Shown in pieces: positions 13,120 to 22,170 of a stretch of DNA of 36,596 nucleotides (within the stretch, counting starts at the first letter, position 1; every line of letters starts with the position of its first letter). Source of the DNA: Bacteroidales bacterium. Its GTDB lineage: Bacteria; Bacteroidota; Bacteroidia; Bacteroidales; Marinilabiliaceae. The notes under the pieces were generated by a model. The model was not told the origin of the DNA. It did no database searches and saw only the letters and a list, made by a program, of their open reading frames with translations. The position numbers and the translations under genes were made by a program. The DNA lies in NCBI GenBank assembly GCA_017417385.1, contig JAFPZF010000051.1:1-36596 (forward strand). The letters run 5' to 3'.

Positions 13120-14232
13120 ATGGTCGGCGTAATACTAAGACTGATAGGCATAGTAGTAAGCATAGTGACGACAGGCGTAGCGTTCTCGGTCAGTGTAGCG
13201 CCGTCGGAGCTGAGCAACCTGTGCATATTGTGGTTCGCGTACCCGTATCTCGTGATAGCATTAGCGTGCTGGACAGTCATACTATTCACGACAAACAACA
13301 TCAAGACAGGGTGTGCGTGTCTCATAGTGCTGGCTATCAACGGGAGTGACGCGCTGAACGTCATCGGGCTAAGAGGAGTCGACAAGGAAGAAGTCGCAAA
13401 GAAGGAGGGGGAACTACGGCTACTGACGTATAACGTCCGTTACTTCGCATACAACGGGGAGATGAAGATAGAGGAGATGAGGGAGAAGATGGCGGACTTC
13501 ATAGAGATGACAGACGCGGACATAGTATGCCTGCAGGAGGTCCCGTCGAAGGACTACGTCGCCAAGTACATAAAAGGGAGACTAAGCGAAGTACTCGGTC
13601 GGTACAGATACGTCGAGCACTTCAGCAGTTCGAACGGGGGAGAGCTACTCTTCTCGAAGTACAAGACAGAGGCGACAGGGTACACAGAAGAGAAGGGAAT
13701 ACAGGCGATAGACATAACCATAGGGGAGAGGGAAGAGAAGGGGGAGAAGGGGGAAGGTAAGTTAAGAGTCTACAACTGCCACCTCGCATCGCTCGGGCTA
13801 AGCGACGAGCAGATCAATGCAGTCTCGGTGAACGAGAAGATAGACACAGAGAGGCGGAGCCTATTGAGGGGTACATACGAGAGGATGATGGAGGCGTTCA
13901 GGAAGCGGGAGAAGGAAGTCGAATCGCTGAAGGGCGTAGTAGAGAAGACAGAGGGGGATGTCATCATCTGCGGGGACTTCAACGACACACCGATATCGTA
14001 TACATATTGGGCAGTCAGCCACATAAAGACTGGAGGAGGCGAAAAGATGACCGACAGGCATGAGTCACAACAGATCGGGCTACACAACACGTACAGGGGG
14101 AAGCTACCGCCGCTAAGGATAGACTTCGTATTCACGAACGAGAGCATGAAGGCAGAGAGATACAGAGAGTATGACCTACCCTACTCCGACCACAGGGCAG
14201 TCGTCGTAGACTTCAGGATGAGGGGTAGATAG
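13120..14232 (+). CDS. Membrane-anchored endonuclease/exonuclease/phosphatase (EEP) family protein
   Basis: The 370-residue product has two or three hydrophobic helices in the first 90 residues. The EEP catalytic domain follows: LTYNVRYF, the metal-binding Glu in IVCLQEVPS, GDFNDTP in the middle, and the terminal YSDHRAVVVDF with the catalytic His. Family members hydrolyse phosphodiesters in nucleic acids or lipids; which one applies here cannot be told. A short purine-only stretch at 13725-13757 inserts a GEREEKGEKGEGK loop into the domain, probably a surface expansion. It is the last gene of the mutL cluster. Confidence 0.9.
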   Translation: MVGVILRLIGIVVSIVTTGVAFSVSVAPSELSNLCILWFAYPYLVIALACWTVILFTTNNIKTGCACLIVLAINGSDALNVIGLRGVDKEEVAKKEGELRLLTYNVRYFAYNGEMKIEEMREKMADFIEMTDADIVCLQEVPSKDYVAKYIKGRLSEVLGRYRYVEHFSSSNGGELLFSKYKTEATGYTEEKGIQAIDITIGEREEKGEKGEGKLRVYNCHLASLGLSDEQINAVSVNEKIDTERRSLLRGTYERMMEAFRKREKEVESLKGVVEKTEGDVIICGDFNDTPISYTYWAVSHIKTGGGEKMTDRHESQQIGLHNTYRGKLPPLRIDFVFTNESMKAERYREYDLPYSDHRAVVVDFRMRGR

Positions 14233-20712: not shown

Positions 20713-21276
20713 ATGGAAGAAGAACTGGAACTGCTGCTCGAGGACGTCAAGGAGCAGATGGATAAGGCGACCCAGCACCTTGACTACGAGCTTGGCAAGA
20801 TCAGGGCAGGCAAGGCAAATCCTCACGTACTGGACGACGTGAAGGTCGAGTATTTCGGCACGCTTACCCCGCTTGCGCAGGTGGCGAGCGTGACAGTCCC
20901 TGACCCACGCACGATAGCGATAAAGCCGTGGGAGAAGAGCATGATAGCGCCGATAGAGAAGGCTATCATGGCGGCGAATCTCGGTCTGAATCCGGACAAC
21001 AATGGAGAGATGATAAGGATCATCATCCCGCCGTTGACAGAGGAGAGGCGCAAGGACCTGGCGAAGATGGCGAAGAAGACCTGCGAGGATGCGCGCATAG
21101 TAGTCCGCAACGCACGTCGCGACTCCATCGAGGAGCTGAAGAAGATGAAGAAGAACGGACTCGCCGAGGACCTCGAGAAGGACAAGGAGGCAGAGGTCCA
21201 GAAGATACACGACGGCTACATGAAGAAGATAGACGACATGTATGCTGCGAAGGAGAAGGACATCATGACCGTATAA
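20713..21276 (+). CDS. frr: Ribosome recycling factor
   Basis: The 187-residue length is exact for the family. The characteristic segments are present: LGKIRAGKANPHVLDDVKVEYFG, here identified by IRAGKANP and VEYFGTLTPL, then DPRTIAIKPWEKSMI, and LTEERRKDLAKMAKK. The protein splits post-termination ribosomes together with EF-G. A strong terminator follows within 35 nt. Confidence 0.98.
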   Translation: MEEELELLLEDVKEQMDKATQHLDYELGKIRAGKANPHVLDDVKVEYFGTLTPLAQVASVTVPDPRTIAIKPWEKSMIAPIEKAIMAANLGLNPDNNGEMIRIIIPPLTEERRKDLAKMAKKTCEDARIVVRNARRDSIEELKKMKKNGLAEDLEKDKEAEVQKIHDGYMKKIDDMYAAKEKDIMTV

Positions 21277-21575: not shown

Positions 21576-21583
21576 TACATTTG
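21576..21583 (+). promoter_or_regulatory. -7 promoter element upstream of the structured RNA
   Basis: TACATTTG, followed by C, matches the consensus exactly. Transcription from here would start near 21590, about 60 nt before the first stem of the predicted RNA. Upstream, 21390-21425 shares TAGAAGGCTAACC with 15652-15665. Confidence 0.68.
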
Positions 21584-21647: not shown

Positions 21648-21837
21648 GGCATTAGCTATTATTCGCATTCAAAACAAAAGCGTCGGAAACTCTTGATTTT
21701 GAAAGAAGTCAGGTAATGCCATTCACGGAGGCGTAAGTGCTCCGTACCACCTTGTAGAGTTAATGCTCGCACCGAAAAAGTGTGAGCTGACTAAAGGTGG
21801 AACGGGGTTCATCCGACGCTCCCCGTGAATGCGATAG
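21648..21837 (+). ncRNA. Candidate structured RNA with a loop-loop pseudoknot
   Basis: The stems are: 21648-21654 with 21714-21720; 21668-21674 with 21697-21703; 21720-21728 with 21823-21831; 21747-21753 with 21794-21800; 21765-21772 with 21780-21787 (one G.T); 21725-21730 with 21740-21745; and 21803-21807 with 21821-21825. Some share bases and must compete. The loop of the second stem holds AGCGTCGGA (21679-21687), the perfect complement of TCCGACGCT (21812-21820) in the loop of the last hairpin, a 9-bp kissing interaction. TCGCATTCA (21663-21671) can alternatively pair with TGAATGCGA (21826-21834). The HTH gene ATG is 76 nt downstream and a promoter is upstream. I do not recognise a known riboswitch, tmRNA, RNase P or SRP RNA. 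Confidence 0.75.
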
Positions 21838-21912
21838 AGAGGCTCACACCTTTCTTATATATATACCAGGCGAAGAGTGACTGATAGGTGGTGCCGCTAT
21901 CGAGTCACGGAT

Positions 21913-22170
21913 ATGGGAGGAAAAACGATAGGGCTACATATAGGTAGAATAGTCGAGAAGGAGCTAAGGAGTCAGAGGAGGAGTGCGGCCTGGCTTGCGG
22001 AGCAATTGAGTTGCACACGCTCTAACATATACGGGATATTTGCAAGGGAGAACATAGACGTGGAACTACTTATACGCCTCTCGCTAGTCCTCCGTCATAA
22101 CTTTCTACAGGACGTCTCAATAATAGTACAGGACCACATATCCTCCTCTGACAGTTCAAGAAACCCTTGA
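21913..22170 (+). CDS. Small XRE-like helix-turn-helix DNA-binding protein
   Basis: From the ATG at 21913 the product is 85 residues. It contains HIGRIVEKELRSQRRSAAWL, then AEQLSCTRSNIYGIFARENI with the recognition helix, then DVELLIRLSLVLRHNFLQDVS. This is a form of HTH protein very common in Bacteroidota, usually an uncharacterised regulator. The open frame extends 12 codons upstream to a GTG at 21877, but the conserved part starts after the ATG. It follows the candidate structured RNA, which could be its leader. Confidence 0.85.
   Translation: MGGKTIGLHIGRIVEKELRSQRRSAAWLAEQLSCTRSNIYGIFARENIDVELLIRLSLVLRHNFLQDVSIIVQDHISSSDSSRNP

Follow-up and report, generated by a model that had tools for sequence, protein, structure and literature searches.

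A conserved, probable leader RNA with a hypervariable stem, apparently a gene switch of a kind not yet described, precedes restriction-modification and other genes in Bacteroidales

Restriction-modification genes need timing, so that the cell's own enzyme does not cut the cell, and such timing is provided by controller (C) proteins and by promoter methylation, which act on the DNA through protein. To our knowledge, the timing of restriction-modification outside a few protein-controlled systems is an open question. The family described here would share with these systems the timing control of restriction-modification genes and differs from them in being an RNA leader. Closer in layout are the transcription attenuators and the expression platforms of riboswitches, in which the 5' leader likewise forms helices that exclude each other and a T-run precedes the gene; however, the leader family has a hypervariable three-letter stem, is common to unrelated defence genes, and no ligand, leader peptide or regulator is known for it. 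We know of no other leader RNA that has a hypervariable three-letter stem. In the antisense and attenuator RNAs of plasmid copy control, a variable stem-loop is thought to set the identity among otherwise alike RNAs, whereas in the leader family the varying part is a stem, no antisense transcript is known, and the operons are chromosomal.

Structured RNAs have also been described from Bacteroidetes, and the motifs Bacteroidales-1, Bacteroid-trp and Bacteroides-1 have Rfam numbers (PMC2864571). These are likewise structured RNAs, and no Rfam 15 family matches the leader. When searching Rfam with the entire stretch of DNA that was analysed (36,596 nt, hereafter the window), only a tRNA elsewhere is found and no family for the element. 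With Rfam 15 and 501 nt round the element (E up to 10), there are two matches far below the gathering scores; 11 loci at which a divergent leader or an HTH gene is present (E up to 1) give one unrelated sub-threshold match, and 20 leader loci at gathering score give only a tRNA. A candidate motif named for HTH-XRE genes, which the initial annotation of this DNA had tentatively mentioned, appears in none of the Rfam results for the element, and no motif is so named in the accessible text of a report of 100 candidate RNAs near HTH-XRE genes (PMC8040213). A literature search, the scope of which left most subscription papers and bioRxiv outside, found no recognised description of the leader family, which is weak evidence.

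The initial annotation had proposed a structured RNA with a loop-loop interaction at 21648-21837. This is borne out by the stability of the fold (z -7.1) and by compensatory change across 59 homologues, and the conserved unit is found to extend beyond 21837, to about 21861 (Table 1). The minimum free energy of the segment 21640-21845 is -81.1 kcal/mol, compared with a mean of -51.2 +/- 4.2 kcal/mol for shuffled sequences (z -7.14; 0 of 200 shuffles as good). The two 9-nt complements that had been pointed out in the letters, here named P2 (21679-21687 with 21812-21820) and P1 (21663-21671 with 21826-21834), are both without mismatch. The innermost pair of P6 in the window, 21773-21779, is a non-standard C-A pair. 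The gene upstream of the leader, at 20713-21276, is presumably that of a ribosome recycling factor.

Table 1. Coordinates of the leader RNA and of the adjoining features in the window
Feature	Position	Strand	Remarks
-7 box TACATTTG, Bacteroidales-type promoter	21576..21583	+	TAnnTTTG family feature
Conserved leader RNA	21648..21861	+	cmsearch with model R1, 200.4 bits (model contains the window sequence); fold z -7.1
P1, 5' strand	21663..21671	+	pairs with 21826-21834; 99.8% of cells paired; double changes in 5/8 pairs
P3 hairpin, loop holding the P2 5' strand	21670..21701	+	columns 33-53 covary, z 12.8, 98% canonical
P2 loop-loop helix, 5' strand	21679..21687	+	98.5-100% paired; double changes in 6/9 pairs
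PK, 5' strand	21722..21728	+	alternative partner of 21823-21829; 90.4% paired
Pvar (hypervariable stem), 5' arm	21747..21753	+	G scarce family-wide
P6 hairpin	21765..21787	+	21765-21773 with 21779-21787; family pairing 98.4%
Pvar (hypervariable stem), 3' arm	21794..21800	+	C scarce family-wide
P7 hairpin	21803..21825	+	21803-21807 with 21821-21825; 93.4% paired
P2 loop-loop helix, 3' strand, within the P7 loop	21812..21820	+	covariation
P1, 3' strand	21826..21834	+	overlaps the PK 3' strand
Terminator-like hairpin T	21837..21854	+	21841-21849 is also the ALT tail, able to pair with the P6 3' strand 21780-21788; ALT 96.4% paired
Bulged remnant or variant of the relatives' pre-start-codon hairpin	21877..21908	+	comparison of motif GATTGATAG
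Gene of the 85-aa small HTH protein	21913..22170	+	ATG at 21913; stop ends at 22170

By blastn, a 206-nt query has relatives in 11 of the 198 related genomes, one of which is the source genome itself, and 19 of these homologues were used for building the covariance model R1. In the 393 genomes of the order, R1 has matches in 35 (E 0.001), 22 of which have E < 1e-10; this search used stricter filters and scored only five candidates per genome, and its weak matches are doubtful. R1 also has matches in 7 of 15 genomes of the same genus (E 0.01) and in 7/26, 15/18 and 5/7 genomes of three other genera (E 1e-6). The positive genomes yielded between 1 and 6 copies each. A class-wide sample of 395 genomes, some of them from the order, gives at E 1e-5 nothing beyond the own genome and a single weak match (E 6.7e-7), and the leader RNA seems to be confined to Bacteroidales. 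R1 undercounts the family, because divergent leaders exist, for example before an EcoRI-type methylase gene in the own genome (contig C32, upstream of the methylase at 13563), where a leader missed by R1 is seen. The analysis concerns 94 elements, including that of the window; two antisense R1 matches overlapping true ones were handled apart in the counts. A phage-borne origin was considered and dropped: R1 finds no homologue in 38 viral contigs sharing an exact 16-mer with the leader, and blastn of phage and plasmid records finds none either.

The core helices are strongly conserved by covariation. Alignment A3 contains 59 of the 94 elements, all of them matched at E 1e-20 or better (58 distinct rows), leaving out the weaker-scoring elements and L143, a near copy of L078. 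When considering P1, P2, P6 and P7 together, 98.1% of 1778 cells are paired and 18 of 31 pairs have changed on both sides, values which are reached by 0 of 500 shuffles, and sliding these helices by 1-3 columns lowers the pairing to 35-51%. As the fit of A3 used P1, P2 and P6, the counts are biased in favour of these three; P7, PK, ALT and Pvar are outside the model. In the mutual information, which is blind to structure, three P2 pairs (z 18.9-20.5) and two P1 pairs rank at the top, followed by P3, Pvar and P7 (columns 205-229, z 12.1). Taken by single columns, A3 supports the P3 hairpin in part only, as the register of its outer pairs shifts between copies. P2 is a loop-loop helix joining the hairpins P3 and P7, both of which covary, in agreement with the kissing loop that had been proposed for the window. 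A covariance model from homologues was among the checks that the initial annotation had suggested, and compensatory change proves to be strong in P1, P2, P6 and P7. No conserved peptide is seen when considering the frame from an internal ATG or GTG near P6, the length of which is scattered from 3 to 441 codons; a leader peptide in this frame was rejected on this ground.

Two further helices, PK and ALT, compete with the core. PK (21722-21728 with 21823-21829) takes part of the 3' strand of P1, and ALT (21780-21788 with 21841-21849) takes the 3' strand of P6, so that P1 (99.8%) and PK (90.4%), as well as P6 (98.4%) and ALT (96.4%), are pairs of conserved helices that share strands and exclude each other. 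The pairing of PK and ALT, when both are slid together, drops to 35-47%. Considered jointly, their percentage paired, number of double-change cells and covariation score beat all 500 shuffles; their number of double-change pairs is reached by 35 of 500 shuffles and that of further pair types by 57 of 500, so two of the five measures are not exceptional. Column 236 covaries both with column 25 (P1) and with column 92 (PK), and at columns 92-236 of PK a C-G pair replaces U-A in seven sequences. By eye, the divergent leader L003 keeps the ALT pairing with a quite different sequence, having GCGTAGTGC as its P6 strand and GCACTACGC as its tail. These two conserved strand competitions, of P1 with PK and of P6 with the tail before the T-run, suggest an attenuator, and attenuation by the leader RNA is plausible. 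The two-fold switch of the initial annotation is thereby upheld as far as alternative folds are concerned, although the conserved competition is that of P1 with PK, and P2 could form alongside P1. In the nested partition function ALT does not form (mean probability about 1e-9), and P6 and hairpin T have probabilities of 0.98 and 0.72; with ALT unpopulated at nested equilibrium, the exchange from P6 to ALT would need a helper or co-transcriptional kinetics.

In the flanks of the element, TAnnTTTG occurs within 150 nt upstream of 69 of the 91 elements that have enough flank, mostly 40-100 nt upstream of the element, compared with 9.85 expected from 200 first-order Markov shuffles (maximum 17); the -7 box noticed in the window, TACATTTG at 21576-21583, is thus a feature of the family. 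A T-run of at least four T is present in 83 of the 94 elements, being interrupted in the window (TTTCTTATATA), and the probability of hairpin T is 0.99 in the window for a mean of 0.72. With one mismatch allowed, 49 of 58 leaders have the motif GATTGATAG between the T-run and the ATG. Ahead of the ATG, 56 of 58 leaders have a hairpin of at least 8 bp (one mismatch), the exceptions being L089 and the window, where it is bulged; this test is weak because the shuffles give 8.45/20 (42%), and RNAalifold on the alignment of the start-codon hairpin gives no structure. A first ORF of at least 60 aa starts within 150 nt downstream in 81 of the 94 elements according to the script. Of the remaining 13, 12 proved on re-examination to have a gene start as well, the last one, L138, being at a contig end. 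Overall, a gene start is located just downstream, within about 150 nt, of 93 of the 94 elements, as had been observed for the window with its HTH gene, and the element is probably the 5' leader of the downstream gene, as judged from these positions. In L095 and L128 the first gene 3' of the leader looks broken near its start.

The initial annotation had linked the element with HTH genes, which does not hold for the family, as the downstream gene is an HTH gene in only 7 of the 94 elements (five of the 81 script-called genes, together with L079 and L119), most of the others being restriction-modification genes. By Pfam and reading of the proteins, 69 of the 94 are classed as restriction-modification or DNA-methylase/helicase genes, and 43 of these are EcoRI-type, two of them cut by a contig end. 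Three of the assignments (L113, L116 and L095) were made from methylase-like motifs read by eye, L113 and L116 having no Pfam match, and L083 is counted as restriction-modification, its first called ORF being a spurious 63-aa frame before a methylase. The other downstream genes are the seven small HTH genes, eight small ATPases (a class that rests on weak Pfam matches), four sulfatases, five others (FRG, SPFH, acyltransferase, GDSL lipase and one of no known class) and one unseen. Among the 81 script-called genes, Pfam finds EcoRI_methylase in 36, and the further domains include Eco57I, N6_Mtase, MmeI, N6_N4_Mtase, D12, ResIII, Tsp45I and HsdM; PADLOC reports 36 type II methylases and at least six of type III. 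The gene that often follows the EcoRI-type methylase (38 elements) has the motif DGQQR, and we take it to be DUF262/GmrSD-like. The leader is not obligatory, because an EcoRI-type methylase gene of the same-genus genomes G007 and G012 has no such leader. Sulfatase-family genes, at L100, L078, L108 and L143, share the leader type with the restriction-modification genes. The small ATPase-like genes (MKLIVLYGPE...) with a leader are those of L154, L155, L159, L160, L166-L168 and L085; except at L085, genes of long proteins that look secreted come next, and together these may be a system.

The leader can be combined with different genes. L081 and L163 have leaders that are 99.3% identical outside the hypervariable stem and unrelated genes downstream, and at L100 and L105, in two species, the same site with the same upstream DNA and leader is followed by a sulfatase in one and by a methylase pair in the other. 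The leader is therefore a module, since near-identical leaders (outside the stem) precede unrelated genes. The same cassette is also seen in different places (L099 and L149). A shared right end of such cassettes was looked for after the last gene and none was seen.

The hypervariable stem Pvar encloses P6. Outside the stem, defined as the first 80 nt plus everything 3' of the stem, 23 pairs of leaders are at least 96% identical, and in 18 of these the stems are less than 0.90 identical (down to 0.36), and in five the same (at least 0.95); the pairs are not independent, and L079/L119 and L147/L148, among the 18, share the stem core. The partial L090, elements of less than 190 nt and stems with low scores do not enter these stem statistics. 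At L088 and L118 the genes are 98.3% identical over the first 360 nt and the stems are wholly different, and at L099 and L149 the stems differ and the methylases are 99.5% identical. The pairing of Pvar is nevertheless kept, as its covariation score is 0.69 versus 0.22 when shuffled and 73.5% of the cells are paired, with columns that are imperfectly aligned. Its central columns use three letters, G being at 2-5% at columns 129-133 of the 5' arm and C at 2-3% at columns 194-197 of the 3' arm, whereas the other three are common; at the end columns the bias is weaker (G 9-22% at columns 128, 134 and 135). Of 78 distinct 5' arms, 59 have more C than G and five more G than C. When all subfamilies are pooled (84 distinct stems), G makes up 9% of the 5' arm and C 6% of the 3' arm. 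P1 and P6 show a milder version of this skew. It could be a matter of folding hygiene, as an arm free of G is unable to pair prematurely with the C-rich strand of P6 behind it, but this leaves unexplained why the stem changes faster than its surroundings.

The identity of Pvar slightly follows that of the remainder of the leader (rho 0.26) and not that of the C-terminal part of the methylase (partial rank correlation -0.04, permutation p 0.69) when considering 33 EcoRI-type methylases; the other genes of the 43 are incomplete, truncated or absent from the ORF calls. Pairing of Pvar with its own gene was rejected, since the longest matches with the own 2.6 kb downstream average 7.1-7.4 nt versus 7.0-7.4 nt with other loci, and so was a relation with the upstream flank, with 4.44 nt for the own and 4.42 nt for the other flanks (80 leaders, 12 random others each). 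The 9-nt stem core is identical in 0 of 80 within-genome pairs and within one change in 23 of 4198 between-genome pairs, and the within-genome distinctness proves nothing, because near-matches between genomes are rare as well. In the MmeI-like proteins of L088 and L118, from two species, the C-terminal target-recognition part is replaced and the N-terminal half is nearly identical.

The RNA is real, and it seems to be a kind of gene switch that has not been described. The element is best explained as a cis-acting 5' leader RNA family, spread over Bacteroidales, that controls restriction-modification genes and some regulators and other proteins; we give this reading a probability of about 0.6, and regulation in cis is likely, judging from sequence. 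Transcription would start at the promoter some 60 nt upstream, as the -7 box implies. As the covariation shows, P1 closes the domain, the kissing helix P2 between P3 and P7 holds it together, and Pvar with P6 forms a protruding arm. Two conserved strand exchanges, from P1 to PK and from P6 to ALT, could switch the leader. With ALT followed by the T-run just before the gene, the output is likely conditional termination, which the start-codon hairpin might assist. A single RNA leader before defence genes of types I, II, IIG and III and other defence genes would mean a common layer of defence control in Bacteroidales. The three-letter Pvar may give each leader a private sequence, perhaps preventing confusion among copies or partner RNAs in one cell, and it can be speculated that the leaders are address-bearing RNA switches, in which a cognate RNA (a leader copy, an antisense RNA or a phage RNA) invades the private stem, frees the P6 strand and flips between read-through and termination. 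This extension is doubtful; no trans partner is seen in the own genome, where the 206-nt query at E <= 1 finds three further places, two of which lie within other leaders, the third being a match of 19 nt. If it were true, the diversification of the stems would prevent mutual silencing between defence systems already present and those coming in, much like plasmid incompatibility.

It is also conceivable that the element is an independent, trans-acting small RNA that ends at the T-run, the downstream genes being reached by leak-through. The own promoter, the T-run in most copies and the stability of hairpin T (mean 0.72, window 0.99) are in agreement with this, but the nearness of a gene start (within about 150 nt in 93 of the 94) and the retention of GATTGATAG between the T-run and the ATG (49 of 58) make it unlikely. 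A riboswitch for a small molecule, for example S-adenosylmethionine, the cofactor of the methylases, would account for the compact pseudoknotted core, the strongly conserved sequence and the alternative folds, with a peripheral stem that is free to vary. However, no metabolite is obviously common to methylases, HTH proteins, sulfatases and ATPases, there is no match with an Rfam riboswitch, and a free stem explains neither the differences where the genes are 98-100% identical at their start (L088/L118, L099/L149) nor the three-letter bias; this reading is thus regarded as improbable.

Other explanations start from the enzymes or from the DNA. The stem might copy the recognition sequence of the downstream enzyme, which would bind its own message; restriction enzymes can be inhibited by artificial RNAs (PMC4551934), and at L088/L118 the stem and the MmeI-like target-recognition part are both replaced, the first approximately 480 residues being nearly identical. 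This is contradicted by L099/L149, having 99.5% identical methylases with different stems, and by the lack of correlation over 33 methylases, and we consider it highly unlikely. That the leader guides the methylase or nuclease encoded downstream, by way of the stem arm, would fit a hypervariable segment inside a constant RNA adjoining DNA-modifying enzymes, but the same leader precedes sulfatases, ATPases and HTH genes, and the arms match their own flanks and genes no better than those of others, so that we give this next to no credence. A DNA-level element, such as the end of a mobile cassette or a recombination site, is suggested by the similarity between loci, which sets in at the RNA or a little upstream of it and can stop at or near a stop codon (L099/L149, L078/L143), the same left end being seen in L081/L165. 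Against it, there is no common right end after the last gene, the promoter is conserved, no homologue is found by R1 in the 38 viral contigs or by blastn in the phage and plasmid records, and the G-U pairs that are frequent in P6, P7 and ALT are RNA-like; a DNA element is very unlikely.

The small HTH gene noticed downstream of the window element encodes an 85-aa protein that is predicted by AlphaFold with a mean pLDDT of 85 and has five helices. It matches no Pfam family, its relatives weakly match HTH_26, HTH_3 or HTH_35, and the solved structures nearest in sequence are XRE-family regulators, with weak E-values of 0.0035 to 0.0085. It is one of 33 matches in 10 of the 15 same-genus genomes. 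This HTH family as a general trans-regulator of the leaders was rejected, as the 10 HTH-positive genomes do not match the seven leader-positive ones; G001 has leaders without an HTH match, and G006, G009, G011 and G013 have an HTH match without an R1 leader. A Prevotella relative of the HTH gene (L005, 2700-2960), which has no R1 match, has a potential long hairpin upstream when inspected by eye. Several HTH relatives have long structured leaders of other sequence and similar layout, also by eye; strongly folding leaders are seen at L225, L226, L229, L230, L248 and L251, several of which end with a short GC-rich segment and a T-run before the ATG.
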